This document shows, piece by piece, positions 1,481 through 7,660 of a stretch of DNA of 8,503 bases. This DNA is from Bacteroidota bacterium (GTDB lineage Bacteria; Bacteroidota; Ignavibacteria; Ignavibacteriales; Melioribacteraceae): NCBI GenBank assembly GCA_021812745.1, contig JAKAMS010000096.1, positions 1-8,503 on the forward strand, in the 5' to 3' direction. Made by a program: the position numbers and the translations under genes. The first letter of the stretch is position 1, and every line of letters begins with the position of its first letter. The notes below the pieces were generated by a model. It was not told where the DNA came from. It did not search any database and saw only the letters and a list, made by a program, of their open reading frames with translations.

Positions 1481-1780
1481 TTACAAAAATCTAATTGATT
1501 TGATTATTTGCTGGTTGAAGTGCTTATTTATTTTATCTGCTATTAAATTCTTTTTGAAATTAAGCTCGCTTTTCCAGACAGAATTTTCTACGCGCAGAAA
1601 GAGAATTTGTTTATCAACTCTAACCGCTTGTGCGATCATTTTCAGTTCAGGAAAAATTTTTTCAAATTCATCAACTATATCGTAATTCTTCAGAGATTCC
1701 CTCAAATTCGAAAATTCATTTTCGTTTTTGAGAAGGTCGTCTAAAGTTCTAAAACTGCTACGCGTATGCTGCCGTGCCAT
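1481..1780 (-). CDS. DUF721/DciA-family protein, putative replicative helicase loader/operator
   Basis: A 99-residue basic protein of the DUF721 family. Members called DciA act with the replicative helicase DnaB in bacteria that lack DnaC or DnaI. What is visible is the short-form DUF721 pattern: a helical N-terminal half (residues about 12-45), then a strand-like segment ILFLRVENSVWKSEL (59-73) with the family's typical small/aromatic 'sS.W..EL' core, and a basic helix plus final strand ending in IIKSIRFL. The ATG at 1780 lies inside recF, giving a 23-nt overlap, so translation is probably coupled to recF. No Shine-Dalgarno is visible upstream. Its place between recF and gyrB in the origin cluster supports a replication role. 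The family call is confident; helicase loading in this organism is inference. Confidence 0.82.
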   Translation of the reverse strand: MARQHTRSSFRTLDDLLKNENEFSNLRESLKNYDIVDEFEKIFPELKMIAQAVRVDKQILFLRVENSVWKSELNFKKNLIADKINKHFNQQIIKSIRFL

Positions 1781-2871: not shown

Positions 2872-4002
2872 TTAAGTATTCAAACGTACCGGCATCAAAA
2901 GCATCATTAAATCTTGATTCTCTTTTTTTTGAACCGGTTCTATCACTACCGCTTTTGTCGGAGAATGAAGTTTAAAAATAATTTCCTCTTCTGTATTCAA
3001 ATGGCTCAAAACATCATTTACGTATGCTGAGTTAAAGCCTATTTCTATTGAGTCTCCTTCGTATTCACAAACAACCTTCTCTTCACCCGACGCACCGATA
3101 TCTAAATCTTCCGCTGAAATTTCCAATGCGTCTTTCGAAATTGAAAATTTAACTCGGCGTGTACTGCTCGTTGAAAAAAGCATCATTCTCTTTATTGAAT
3201 CATGAATATCTTTGGTATTAACCTTCATTTGAAATTCGTTTTCTAATGGAATGACGCTTGCATAATCCGGATATTTTTGAGCGATGAGACGTGTTATTAA
3301 TTCAATGTCGTTCAACTTAAAAGAAACAAAAGTTTTTGTTAAATGAATTTTTACATCTTTTTCGTCCAATATTTTTGATAAGACGGACACCGCTCTTTCC
3401 GGTATTACATACTGCTGGTTAAATGCCGCTTTAATATTTTTCTTTAAGATATTTACTAGACGGTGACCGTCGGTAGTTACAAAGCGTAAACCGTCATCTG
3501 TAAATTCAAAGAGTGTTCCCATCATAGCGGGTCTCATCTCTTCTTTGCTCATTGCAAATGCGCATTTATCAAACGCTTGCCTTAACTCTGCTCCATTTAC
3601 TAAAACTTCATTTATGTCTTTTGCATTTTTTTCTGCGTCTACCGCTGGTATTTCCGGAAACTCGTCTGCATCTAAGTAGCTGATCGTATATTTTCCCATA
3701 TCAGTTACAATATTGATTTTTTTATTCGCCATCAATTTAAAATGAATTGTCGTGTCTTTAAGGGAACGGACAACATCGTTTAATAAACGGGCGGGTACTA
3801 CTATTTTTATGTTTTCTTCTGCTACTATGTTTAAGGAAGACTTCAGAGAAATTTCAAGATCGGTAGCATAAATGGTTAACTGTCCGTCTTTCACTTCAAA
3901 TAAAAAGTTTTCTAGGATTGGCATTGGCGTACGTGCAGGAACTGCCGGAATTATTTTACTGAGAAGTTTTTCTAGTTCTTTACTATTTACTTTGAATTCC
4001 AT
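2872..4002 (-). CDS. dnaN: DNA polymerase III beta subunit (sliding clamp)
   Basis: Ring-forming processivity clamp that holds DNA polymerase III on DNA and recruits other clamp-binding proteins. The chosen start gives 376 residues (E. coli is 366), beginning MEFKVNSKELEKLLSKIIPAVP, a typical first-domain start, with the family segment YLDADEFPEIP at the end of domain 1. It ends in LMLLMPVRLNT, matching the usual C-terminal P-x-R-L clamp end. The frame stays open upstream to an ATG at 4047, but those 15 extra residues do not look like DnaN. The internal ATG at 4002 has GGAG seven bases upstream, so 4002 is preferred. recF starts one base after the stop. As first gene of the leftward group after the 4003-4318 spacer, its promoter should lie in that spacer; none was assigned. 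Confidence 0.97.
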   Translation of the reverse strand: MEFKVNSKELEKLLSKIIPAVPARTPMPILENFLFEVKDGQLTIYATDLEISLKSSLNIVAEENIKIVVPARLLNDVVRSLKDTTIHFKLMANKKINIVTDMGKYTISYLDADEFPEIPAVDAEKNAKDINEVLVNGAELRQAFDKCAFAMSKEEMRPAMMGTLFEFTDDGLRFVTTDGHRLVNILKKNIKAAFNQQYVIPERAVSVLSKILDEKDVKIHLTKTFVSFKLNDIELITRLIAQKYPDYASVIPLENEFQMKVNTKDIHDSIKRMMLFSTSSTRRVKFSISKDALEISAEDLDIGASGEEKVVCEYEGDSIEIGFNSAYVNDVLSHLNTEEEIIFKLHSPTKAVVIEPVQKKENQDLMMLLMPVRLNT

Positions 4003-4013: not shown

Positions 4014-4071
4014 ATGTTGGATCAAAAAATATCAAAAATTGGTGCAATTTTCAATTTATGTATGAACTTGT

Positions 4072-4080
4072 TTATCAACA
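4072..4080 (+). promoter_or_regulatory. DnaA-box-like site TTATCAACA
   Basis: One mismatch to the TTATCCACA consensus, and identical to the box at 5951-5959 on the other side of dnaA. It lies about 70 bp upstream of the dnaN start, on the dnaN side of the AT-rich stretch, where it could serve the origin or dnaN control. Confidence 0.55.
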
Positions 4081-4117
4081 TTTCAACATCTCTATTATTA
4101 TACTTAAGTAATATTTT

Positions 4118-4159
4118 TAAAAGGAATAATAATAATAAGGGGTGTTGATATGTTAGTAA
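4118..4159 (-). promoter_or_regulatory. Candidate basal origin-unwinding element: tandem boxes, GC tract, DnaA-trio-like triplets
   Basis: Read on the minus strand (the dnaA sense strand): TTACTAACA (4159-4151), ATATCAACA (4151-4143), CCCC (4142-4139), then four TTA triplets (4138-4127), followed after one imperfect triplet by CTT and TTA, and then an AT-rich stretch (4091-4120). The B. subtilis basal unwinding system has the same order: DnaA box, short GC-rich spacer, then DnaA-trios of form 3'-[G/A]A[T/A]-5' that guide a DnaA filament onto one strand. Six of the first seven triplets fit that form. Function is inferred from this arrangement. Confidence 0.5.
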
Positions 4160-4269
4160 CCGATATATATTTCCTTTTTATGCATGAATGATAACTAATA
4201 ATTATATGTAATATGTTAATAACTCATTAACAACATCGACTTATATCCCCACCAGTTGAAAGCTTGATA

Positions 4270-4318: not shown

Positions 4319-5722
4319 TTAGGTGACACTATTTTCTATTTTCGTTTTTAATGAATCTAAAATCTCTTTCATTTTAGGATCCTTCAATGTTAATTCTTCA
4401 ATGCTCGTTTGAGAATGAATAACTGTCGAGTGATCTCTTCCTCCAAAATGTAAGCCGATAGTTTTGAGAGAAGATTTAGTTAGCTGTTTTGAAAGATACA
4501 TAGCCACTTGGCGAGCAAGAACAACTTCCTTTTTACGGTTTTTTTCACGCAGCTTATTTTCTTCAACGCCAAAAAATACGCAGACAACTTTTGTAATAAG
4601 TTCAACTGAAATATTTACTTGTTTATTGGTGGAGACTTCCCGCACAGTTTTTTTTACTAACTCAAAATCAATCTCTTTAGAGTTTAGAGAAGAATTCGCC
4701 AAAAGTTTTATTAAGCACCCTTCAAGTTCTCTTATATTGGAAGAGATATTTTGTGCAATATACTCTACTATCTCTCTGGAAAGATTTATTCCATAAACTT
4801 CACTTTTGTTCTTTAGTATAGCAACGCGAGTTTCAAAATCTGGCGGTTGGATATCTGCGGATAAACCCCAAGAAAACCGAGATATTAACCGCTCGTTTAA
4901 TCCTTTTAAATCTTTAGGTGGCTTATCACTTGATAAGATTACTTGTTTTCCGGATTGGTGTAAAGTATTAAAAATCTGAAAAAACAAATCTTGTGTCTTT
5001 TCTTTACCGACGAGAAATTGAATATCGTCTATTATTAATGCGTCCATGCTTTTGTAAAAACCCGAGAATTCGTTTAAAGTATTGCTTTGAATAGCTTCAA
5101 CAAATTCTACCGTGAACGCATCAGAGGAAATATAAATGACTCTTTTATTTTGATCTTTTTCTAAAATTTTATTTCCTATCGCATGAATTAAATGAGTCTT
5201 TCCGAGACCAACGCCGCCGTATATAAATAATGGATTAAATGATGTTTGACCTGGACTATCGCCGACCGCCATTGCTGCAGCGCGGGCAAGTTGATTTCCC
5301 TCGCCTTTAATAAAATTCTCGAAAGTATAACGCGGGTTGAGATAGGTTTCGTAATCACGTTTGATAATTTGAATTGCTGTGGCAGCGCTACCATTGCTGG
5401 GCGTTTCTCTGGTTTGCTCTTCTGCTGTTTCTTTCTCTTCGTATATTACATAAACTAATCTGCCGTTGTTGCCAAGAACCTGTGAAACCGTTTTATTAAT
5501 TAGTGTATTATAATGCTCTTCTATCCACTCGATAAAAAAATTATTAGGGACATAAATTTTTAGAGTAGAATTTTCTAATTCAAAAGGCTTTATGGGTAAG
5601 AACCAGGTGTTGTAGGTTATGAAAGGGACATTTTCTTTTATAAGACTTAAGCACTCCTTCCACAGATCCTTTGCATTTTTTTCTAATGGAGGATTCTGAA
5701 GATTAACAGCTGCGTTTTGCAT
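4319..5722 (-). CDS. dnaA: Chromosomal replication initiator protein DnaA
   Basis: AAA+ initiator that binds DnaA boxes, melts oriC and recruits the helicase; it also usually represses its own gene. From ATG 5722 it has 467 residues, full length. Domain I is at about 18-85 (LWKECLSLIKE...YNTWFLPIKPF), a short linker domain II at about 95-120, and the AAA+ module from about 125. Walker A is GGVGLGKTH at 169-177, Walker B LIIDDIQF at 229-236, the arginine-finger segment NERLISRF ends at 283 (R282), and the sensor-2 region is SNIRELEG near 328-335. Domain IV has a basic loop (KNRKKEVVLARQ) and the signature GGRDHSTVIH at 427-436. A GTG nine bases upstream (5731) is an equally in-frame start lying within a DnaA box. 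Neither start has a Shine-Dalgarno; ATG is preferred by codon type only. It is flanked by two box-rich spacers. Confidence 0.98.
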   Translation of the reverse strand: MQNAAVNLQNPPLEKNAKDLWKECLSLIKENVPFITYNTWFLPIKPFELENSTLKIYVPNNFFIEWIEEHYNTLINKTVSQVLGNNGRLVYVIYEEKETAEEQTRETPSNGSAATAIQIIKRDYETYLNPRYTFENFIKGEGNQLARAAAMAVGDSPGQTSFNPLFIYGGVGLGKTHLIHAIGNKILEKDQNKRVIYISSDAFTVEFVEAIQSNTLNEFSGFYKSMDALIIDDIQFLVGKEKTQDLFFQIFNTLHQSGKQVILSSDKPPKDLKGLNERLISRFSWGLSADIQPPDFETRVAILKNKSEVYGINLSREIVEYIAQNISSNIRELEGCLIKLLANSSLNSKEIDFELVKKTVREVSTNKQVNISVELITKVVCVFFGVEENKLREKNRKKEVVLARQVAMYLSKQLTKSSLKTIGLHFGGRDHSTVIHSQTSIEELTLKDPKMKEILDSLKTKIENSVT

Positions 5723-5926: not shown

Positions 5927-5942
5927 TGTGGAACGTTCCACA
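5927..5942. repeat. Perfect 16-bp palindrome TGTGGAACGTTCCACA
   Basis: Every base pairs with its symmetric partner. Each half ends in TCCACA, the core of a DnaA box, so it could be two overlapping divergent low-affinity DnaA sites. It could also be an operator for a dimeric regulator. It resembles a ParB parS site (TGTTCCACGTGGAACA in B. subtilis) with the two half-sites in swapped order, so it is not a parS match as written. It sits 8 bp before the TTATCAACA/TTATTAACA pair. Confidence 0.6.
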
Positions 5943-5950
5943 AAAACAAG

Positions 5951-5970
5951 TTATCAACATTTTATTAACA
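5951..5970 (+). promoter_or_regulatory. DnaA-box-like pair TTATCAACA / TTATTAACA at 11-bp spacing
   Basis: TTATCAACA (5951-5959) and TTATTAACA (5962-5970) lie in the same orientation, 11 bp start to start. The same two 9-mers occur in the dnaN-dnaA spacer (4072-4080, 4270-4278, 4214-4222), linking the two sides of dnaA as one DnaA-binding system. Confidence 0.55.
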
Positions 5971-6026
5971 AGACAATTTATTCGTTGTGAAGAGAGGTGA
6001 AGATATGTTAAGCATCCCTTTTGTGC

Positions 6027-7114: not shown

Positions 7115-7660
7115 ATGAGAGATTACAAACCGGTATCACGAAAATCTTTTTGGGAAGCTTTCTCGCCATGGATCGGAACGGCAATCTTATTGCCTGTAGT
7201 TATCTACTACACTCTTAATGAAGGTAAATTTACCTTTATTGATTACATTAACCTTCTAATACATGAAGGCGGGCACGGCGTATTTAAGATTTTTGGAAAA
7301 TTTATTTATACGCTTGGCGGAACGCTAATGCAGATTATAATTCCAAGTATGTTTATAGTTTTCTATTTTATTAAAAAGAAAAAATTTGGAACGCAGGTAT
7401 CCCTGGTATTTCTAGGGGAAAATTTAATTAATATTAGTGTATACGCTGCAGATGCGCGCGCTCTAAAACTCCCTCTTCTTGGCGGCAATAAAGTTTATCA
7501 TGATTGGAATTGGCTTTTAAGAGAAACCGGATTACTTGAATATGATTCTTACATCGGGCATTTCTTTTTTGGTTTAGGGGTTTTGATGTTTCTCTACGCT
7601 CTTCTAATTCCCCTGCTGATGAAAGAAAATAAATATGTAAACATTCCTCTAGGAATATAA
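7115..7660 (+). CDS. Uncharacterised integral membrane protein with HEGGH (HExxH-type) motif
   Basis: A 181-residue hydrophobic protein that I cannot assign to a characterised family. Probable membrane segments are at about 18-33, 66-86, 92-112 and 147-169, with a KKKK turn at 87-90. HEGGH at 50-54 fits the zinc metallopeptidase HExxH pattern. It sits in a mostly hydrophobic stretch followed by GGTLMQIIIP, reminiscent of M50/M50B-like site-2-type peptidases. Other conserved-looking polar features inside or near membrane segments are LGENLINISVYAADAR (100-115, with E102, N103 and D113) and HDW at 129-131. The canonical third-helix NPDG-type motif of M50 is not evident. The ATG follows the asparaginase stop with zero spacing (TAGATG) and no Shine-Dalgarno, so it is probably translated by coupling. 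Peptidase activity is inference only. Confidence 0.85.
   Translation: MRDYKPVSRKSFWEAFSPWIGTAILLPVVIYYTLNEGKFTFIDYINLLIHEGGHGVFKIFGKFIYTLGGTLMQIIIPSMFIVFYFIKKKKFGTQVSLVFLGENLINISVYAADARALKLPLLGGNKVYHDWNWLLRETGLLEYDSYIGHFFFGLGVLMFLYALLIPLLMKENKYVNIPLGI

Follow-up and report, generated by a model that had tools for sequence, protein, structure and literature searches.

The spacer between dnaA and dnaN in the 8,503-bp window (the whole stretch of DNA analyzed here) is probably the opening part of a chromosome origin, in which two convergent modules resembling the basal origin-unwinding system (BUS) of Bacillus subtilis would direct DnaA filaments onto opposite strands (probability about 0.6). 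The two modules lie in opposite orientation, are separated by a nearly constant distance, and are conserved among relatives. The element that an earlier, sequence-only reading had described in this spacer is one half of the convergent pair; the mirror half was missed.

The genes of the window are arranged in the order gyrB, dciA, recF, dnaN, and dnaA, all on the minus strand; a gene for an asparaginase, encoded on the plus strand, comes next. The reading frames of recF and dciA overlap by 23 bases (1758–1780), and a 181-aa open reading frame at 7115–7660 combines hydrophobic stretches with a HEGGH (HExxH-like) motif and has no Pfam match at E 0.001. The predicted DnaA is an ordinary representative of its family: residues 19–464 of 470, i.e., nearly the full length, align with the protein in PDB entry 8btg, which we take to be DnaA of B. 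subtilis on its BUS. Residue I190 of B. subtilis DnaA, which is involved in the binding of single-stranded DNA, aligns with V211 of the window protein. The 50 dnaA relatives (97 to 63% identity) stem from records labeled Bacteroidetes, Ignavibacteriae, Ignavibacteriales, Melioribacter, and the like. The dnaA–dnaN spacer has a length of 316 bp (between the dnaA end at 4319 and the dnaN start at 4002) and contains eight DnaA-box-like 9-mers, compared with 2.2 in shuffled sequences (at most 6). At its dnaN end, it carries a probable promoter with a motif that is presumably of the Bacteroidota type (–33/–7).

Several lines of evidence bear on the position of the origin. In Melioribacter roseus, the 303-bp dnaA–dnaN spacer has been proposed as the likely origin on the basis of GC skew, and its DnaA boxes have been marked (PMC3534657). 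Among the genomes compared here, GC skew in G142 fits an origin at dnaA–dnaN in 16 of 20 samples (7/10 on one arm, 9/10 on the other) if the terminus lies opposite; the skew of G039 is too noisy, and skew places the origin roughly at best. Sites resembling parS (0–1 mismatch) are present in five of the seven genomes scanned, and three of the seven have one within about 112 kb of dnaN (about 112 kb in G142, if the contig is circular, 93 kb in G111, and 92 kb in G048). Exceptions are G138, where the distance is 916 kb, a second, far site in G048, and G003, whose sites are on another contig; no parS-like site was found in G039 and G110. Gene order, the clustering of boxes, the prediction for M. 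roseus, the partly agreeing GC skew, and the parS-like sites make the spacer of the window a candidate, but not a proven, origin.

Table 1. Features of the dnaA–dnaN region of the window and parS-like sites in related genomes (the latter given as genome:contig:position)
Feature	Position	Strand	Basis or remark
dciA, helicase-loader family DciA (PF05258)	1481..1780	-	E 8.9e-12
dnaN	2872..4002	-	ATG start at 4002
Probable dnaN promoter (TTGAAA ... TATTTTTTG), conserved	4022..4058	-	spacer alignment
Mirror outer DnaA box TTATCAACA	4072..4080	+	1 mismatch to TTATCCACA
Mirror inner DnaA-box-like sequence ATTTCAACA	4080..4088	+	3 mismatches to TTATCCACA
Mirror linker TCT	4089..4091	+	direct reading
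Mirror triplet array CTATTATTA	4092..4100	+	module score
AT-rich centre between triplet arrays	4101..4126	.	sequence not conserved, length nearly constant
Forward triplet array, four TTA	4127..4138	-	direct reading
Forward linker CCCC, inner box to triplets	4139..4142	-	direct reading
Forward inner DnaA box ATATCAACA	4143..4151	-	2 mismatches to TTATCCACA
Forward outer DnaA box TTACTAACA	4151..4159	-	3 mismatches to TTATCCACA
Distal direct DnaA box TTATTAACA, conserved (0.78 identity)	4214..4222	-	63 bp upstream of forward outer box
dnaA	4319..5731	-	GTG start
parS-like sites	G142:C1:38851-38924; G111:C3:1455472; G048:C1:3347806; G003:C126:13468-13603		

The forward module is composed exactly as the sequence-only reading had claimed, with two tandem box-like 9-mers, CCCC, and four TTA triplets at 4159–4127 and AT-rich DNA beyond them. 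In a BUS, too, a box is followed by a short linker, by trios (here of the AAT type), and by AT-rich DNA, in this order and polarity. The boxes TTACTAACA and ATATCAACA overlap by one base, which results in a period of 8 bp, and on the sense strand of dnaA, the TTA array is followed by TTCC and then by AT-rich DNA. The strand bound by DnaA at this array is presumably the plus strand, which reads 5′-TAATAATAATAA-3′ (3′-AAT-5′ trios). The B. subtilis DnaA extends from boxes 6/7 onto the trios of a single strand, and both elements are required for opening (PMC6669920, PMC8287927). The published search rule for a BUS allows up to 2 mismatches of a box to TTATCCACA (2 and 4 in the case of tandem boxes) and calls for three or more NAN trios no farther than 16 nt from the box (PMC8287927). 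Both modules of the window fall within this rule: ATATCAACA and TTACTAACA have 2 and 3 mismatches and the mirror boxes TTATCAACA and ATTTCAACA have 1 and 3, and there are four trios after the 4-nt linker of the forward module and three after the 3-nt linker of the mirror. The most frequent proximal trio of known systems, 3′-GAT-5′, which represents a tendency and not a requirement, is absent from the forward module, where all trios are of the AAT type; the first triplet of the mirror module (CTA) is of the GAT type. With a literature-based module score (two boxes, a linker of 3–4 nt, and three [CT]T[AT] triplets), the forward module reaches 22.3, compared with 21.5 for the best result when the whole window was dinucleotide-shuffled 100 times, and none of 1000 shuffles of the spacer attained its score.

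The relatives compared are mostly metagenome-assembled genomes. A search for dnaN in the order matched 152 of 164 genomes, and the regions of 110 matches (L051–L160) were read; together with the 50 dnaA loci and the window, these are 161 regions, of which 136 were usable and 112 had unique upstream sequences. The best forward module exceeded all 100 shuffles in 62 of the 112 regions (50/76 of those adjacent to dnaA and 12/36 of the others), and 61 of these were used further (one lacked room); after the removal of near-copies, 49 representatives with less than 70% core identity remained, the window included. That the forward module falls short of significance in 26 of the 76 dnaA-adjacent regions counts against a twin BUS. 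A strict regular-expression scan of the 112 regions gave a forward match in 53 and a match on the opposite strand, anywhere in the region, in 36; such a scan is blind to cases with one mismatch, and the graded score was therefore used instead.

Of the 62 regions in which the forward module is present, 59 have its boxes at a period of 8 bp, and the commonest form of its outer box is TTATCAACA. Mean pairwise identity is 0.70 for the forward boxes, 0.79 for the forward triplets, and 0.70 for the mirror triplets, but decreases to 0.46 in the centre between the modules and to 0.37 in the DNA upstream. Since the sequences between and upstream of the modules have diverged to this extent, the similarity of the modules reflects constraint rather than recent kinship, which the p-values given below ignore. 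The forward boxes and triplets thus stay alike while the flanking DNA approaches saturation, which supports the presence of a BUS-like element. The register of box, G/C tract, and triplets proposed for this element is conserved in part: boxes and triplets remain alike in diverged relatives, whereas the CCCC tract and the exact 4-nt spacing do not. Among the 49 representatives, the three nucleotides preceding the triplets are richer in GC (0.47) than the spacer (0.25), but their sequence is not fixed; of the linkers in the 62 regions, 52 comprise 3 nt and 10 comprise 4 nt, and the latter include those of the window and several near relatives. In an alignment of 23 spacers, and apart from the promoter-like block of dnaN, 9-mers whose identity to the window is 0.75 or higher are found at the distal box (4222–4214), at the inner box and the triplets of the forward module, and at a second triplet block (4102–4094; 0.83), which belongs to the mirror module; weaker peaks of identity (0.68–0.69) are found at other boxes.

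The mirror module (4072–4100, plus strand) scores almost as high as the forward module (22.1), and its score was likewise reached by none of 1000 spacer shuffles; the strand bound by DnaA at its triplets is presumably the minus strand. The first bases of the two arrays are 47 bp apart (inclusive), and the same distance emerges from the relatives. When the forward site was chosen independently in each of the 62 regions, the mean module score on the opposite strand peaked at a span of 47 (–0.99, with a rise at 46–47), whereas the best span in 60 shuffled sets averaged –16.4 (sd 0.5, max –15.0). In 31 of the 49 representatives, the best mirror is located at a span of 44–49 within an allowed range of 19–91 (p = 6e-22, ignoring kinship). 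A scan of offsets from –110 to +110 in the same representatives yielded a peak for the inverted orientation at +46 (neighbors at 43–47); the peaks for the direct orientation lie upstream, at offsets of –70 and –60, probably because of the distal box. If the mirror is located by its triplets alone, the flanking inverted boxes score 7.92, compared with 2.13 in shuffled sequences (p = 4e-12). That base composition or chance would account for these patterns is hardly credible: TTA runs are common in spacers as AT-rich as these (mean GC 0.25), but dinucleotide shuffles reproduce neither module nor spacing, and the spacing is fixed across nearly saturated sequences.

The main rival explanation, which we regard as less likely, is a single, ordinary BUS (the forward module) that opens the origin. 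The mirror triplets would then form the far edge of the AT-rich element, e.g., as a place where SSB, helicase, or DnaA docks, while the mirror boxes would serve as extra DnaA boxes that raise the local concentration of DnaA. The forward module is indeed stronger and more widespread than the mirror, whose boxes are more degenerate and vary in period (8–11 bp), which also counts against a twin BUS. In the 23-spacer alignment, the identity of the mirror boxes (window 4090–4070) is just 0.41–0.52, in part because their distance varies. Direct boxes beside the mirror triplets also score slightly higher than in shuffled sequences (0.10 vs. –1.35; p = 0.003), a further point against the twin arrangement, and a box in the distal region of B. 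subtilis is functional in either orientation (PMC6669920). By contrast, the inverted orientation clearly prevails in the order, and at one main distance: of the 61 regions, 44 have an inverted box above the threshold (compared with a mean of 3.4 and a maximum of 9 in shuffled sequences) and 17 do not, and 6 have a direct box above it (compared with a mean of 1.2 and a maximum of 4). Moreover, the mirror triplets keep the same polarity relative to these inverted boxes.

The distribution beyond the order also speaks for a single BUS. In a sample of the class (245 genomes, 238 with a match), 50 loci were read (L181–L230), 41 of which were unique and outside the order set. Of the 41 regions, 21 contain the forward module; nine of these 21 have far triplets with a direct box and one has an inverted box. 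In a sister clade (L181, L182, L185, L186, L192, L194, L197, L198, and L204), triplets resembling AATAATAATAG occur at about the same distance, but the adjoining box is direct; L205 and L223 have a forward module without a mirror. The far triplets are more widespread than the inverted boxes, which is the main complication for the twin-BUS model, and those of the sister clade would thus have another partner or another job. The inverted boxes themselves are concentrated in the order of the window. In a quick, long-branched DnaA tree of the 56 rows for which a DnaA fragment as well as a forward module was available, they occur in 29 of 40 rows of the window's clade but in only 1 of 16 across the root; the window and three others of these 29 rows pass the threshold for a direct box as well. 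The label is patchy on this tree because 13 changes are needed to explain it (mean of shuffled labels, 18.9), which is another point against the twin BUS.

If the spacer contains a twin BUS, DnaA on the forward boxes (4159–4143) would form a filament on the plus strand, proceeding triplet by triplet from 4138 toward 4127, and DnaA on the mirror boxes (4072–4088) would form another on the minus strand, starting at 4092 and running toward 4100. The two filaments would each grow 3′ to 5′ on their own strands, toward the AT-rich centre. Each strand would be kept open on its own side, so that each filament could mark the loading place of one helicase; the outcome would be a pair of divergent forks that do not depend on the DnaD route used by Bacillus. 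We infer DnaA binding, opening, and the loading of one helicase per filament from the architecture of the modules. As a general feature of the order Ignavibacteriales, a mirror-symmetric twin BUS whose two filaments converge across about 47 bp and each place one helicase is a tentative proposal, with a chance that we put slightly below even.

With such an arrangement, the DNA sequence itself, rather than an accessory protein such as DnaD, would specify bidirectionality. The authors of the BUS studies regard the loading of two helicases onto the two strands of a bacterial origin as an unsolved problem (PMC10721633, PMC10201434), and in Bacillus, the second strand has been proposed to be marked by DnaD (PMC10201434). 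The DnaD/DnaB_2 domain (PF07261) was not found in 10 genomes of the order, whereas the B. subtilis and L. lactis controls were positive; a DnaD recognition element as the route to the second strand is therefore unlikely. The window encodes DciA, a member of a loader family of bacteria that lack loaders of the AAA+ type (PMC13326638). In a lineage that has DciA and no detected DnaD domain, a DnaA loading module on each strand would provide a DNA-encoded answer to the second-strand problem. A caution against the twin BUS comes from Thermotoga maritima, where annotated DnaA-trios proved merely supportive (PMC10316083).

The closest parallel is the incC BUS of B. subtilis (DnaA-box 6/7 and DnaA-trios), which shares the tandem boxes, the short linker, at least three trios of the same polarity, the AT-rich DNA behind them, the location in the dnaA–dnaN spacer, and a distal box upstream. 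The window differs by its second, facing module on the other strand, about 47 bp away, by forward trios that are all of the AAT type, and by a box distance of 8 bp, and its order differs by the lack of a DnaD/DnaB_2 domain in the 10 genomes mentioned above. AAT-type trios beside DnaA boxes are found also in the experimentally tested BUS at oriC2 of Helicobacter pylori, for which the available text describes no facing second module (PMC10316083). The left and right DnaA arrays of Escherichia coli oriC are likewise two oppositely oriented sub-assemblies that are both implicated in helicase loading (PMC13220808, PMC10316083); according to these sources, however, both arrays flank one side of a single unwinding element, whereas the window has boxes and triplets of its own on each side of the opening region. 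The predicted oriC of M. roseus belongs to the same lineage, is located in the same place, and has marked DnaA boxes, but its description, as far as the accessible text goes, comprises GC skew and DnaA boxes and neither trios nor a facing pair (PMC3534657). No description of convergent or facing BUS modules was found in the part of the open-access literature that was surveyed. The oriC of Streptomyces reportedly contains two putative unwinding elements (cited as Plachetka, 2019) and is similar in combining two such elements in one origin.

The arms of the twin modules might instead form a cruciform or hairpin for origin recognition, in which case their complementarity, and not the binding of DnaA to trios, would be conserved. 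We consider this highly improbable. The strand of the window folds somewhat better than its shuffles (z = –2.27; 5 of 200 shuffles fold equally well), and the mean z over 47 representatives is –1.08, but z is below –2 in just 9 of the 47 and above 0 in 8. The two arms of the same genome match slightly better than arms from different genomes (0.679 vs. 0.658; p = 0.028, n = 33, uncorrected for kinship; p = 0.34 with n = 8); however, the arms consist almost entirely of A and T, and the loop would comprise 20–27 nt. Inner and outer boxes keep the form of a DnaA box at differing periods, and therefore do not pair throughout. In sum, the support for a hairpin is weak.

DnaA is a known regulator, and the intergenic location of the modules, next to the conserved promoter-like block, would suit a role in the control of dnaN or in the termination of dnaA transcription, without any function in opening. 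This explanation is very unlikely. The promoter-like block (4022–4058) is separate from the modules, and the pair persists where the start of dnaN is 600–800 bp away (L037, L111, L036, and L151). Among the nine representatives whose forward module is more than 500 bp from dnaN, the best mirror is at a span of 43–47 in six and has a positive score in four of these six; the mirror is therefore not a dnaN promoter.

Other sites of the window lie upstream of dnaA. The segment 6027–6065, which had been named as an alternative melting site, is outside the eight best module matches and is not conserved in the 12 rows of an alignment that comprises the window and 11 chosen relatives. The highest score of all (23.7) was obtained for a site at 5974 on the plus strand, upstream of dnaA, but stems from its two boxes; the triplets that follow them (CAATTTATT) are poor and not conserved, and the site was rejected as a module. 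The boxes TTATCAACA and TTATTAACA at 5951–5970 (plus strand, upstream of dnaA) are conserved (z 3.0–7.9 in 12/12 rows), whereas the triplets are not; if the origin is bipartite, this two-box element may be its other half. A 16-bp palindrome upstream of dnaA (TGTGGAACGTTCCACA, 5927–5942) is within one mismatch of TGTGRAACGTTYCACA in 12/12 rows, and it occurs once per genome in five of seven genomes and is absent from the other two. The palindrome, which reads like parS with its half-sites swapped, is perhaps an operator of dnaA.
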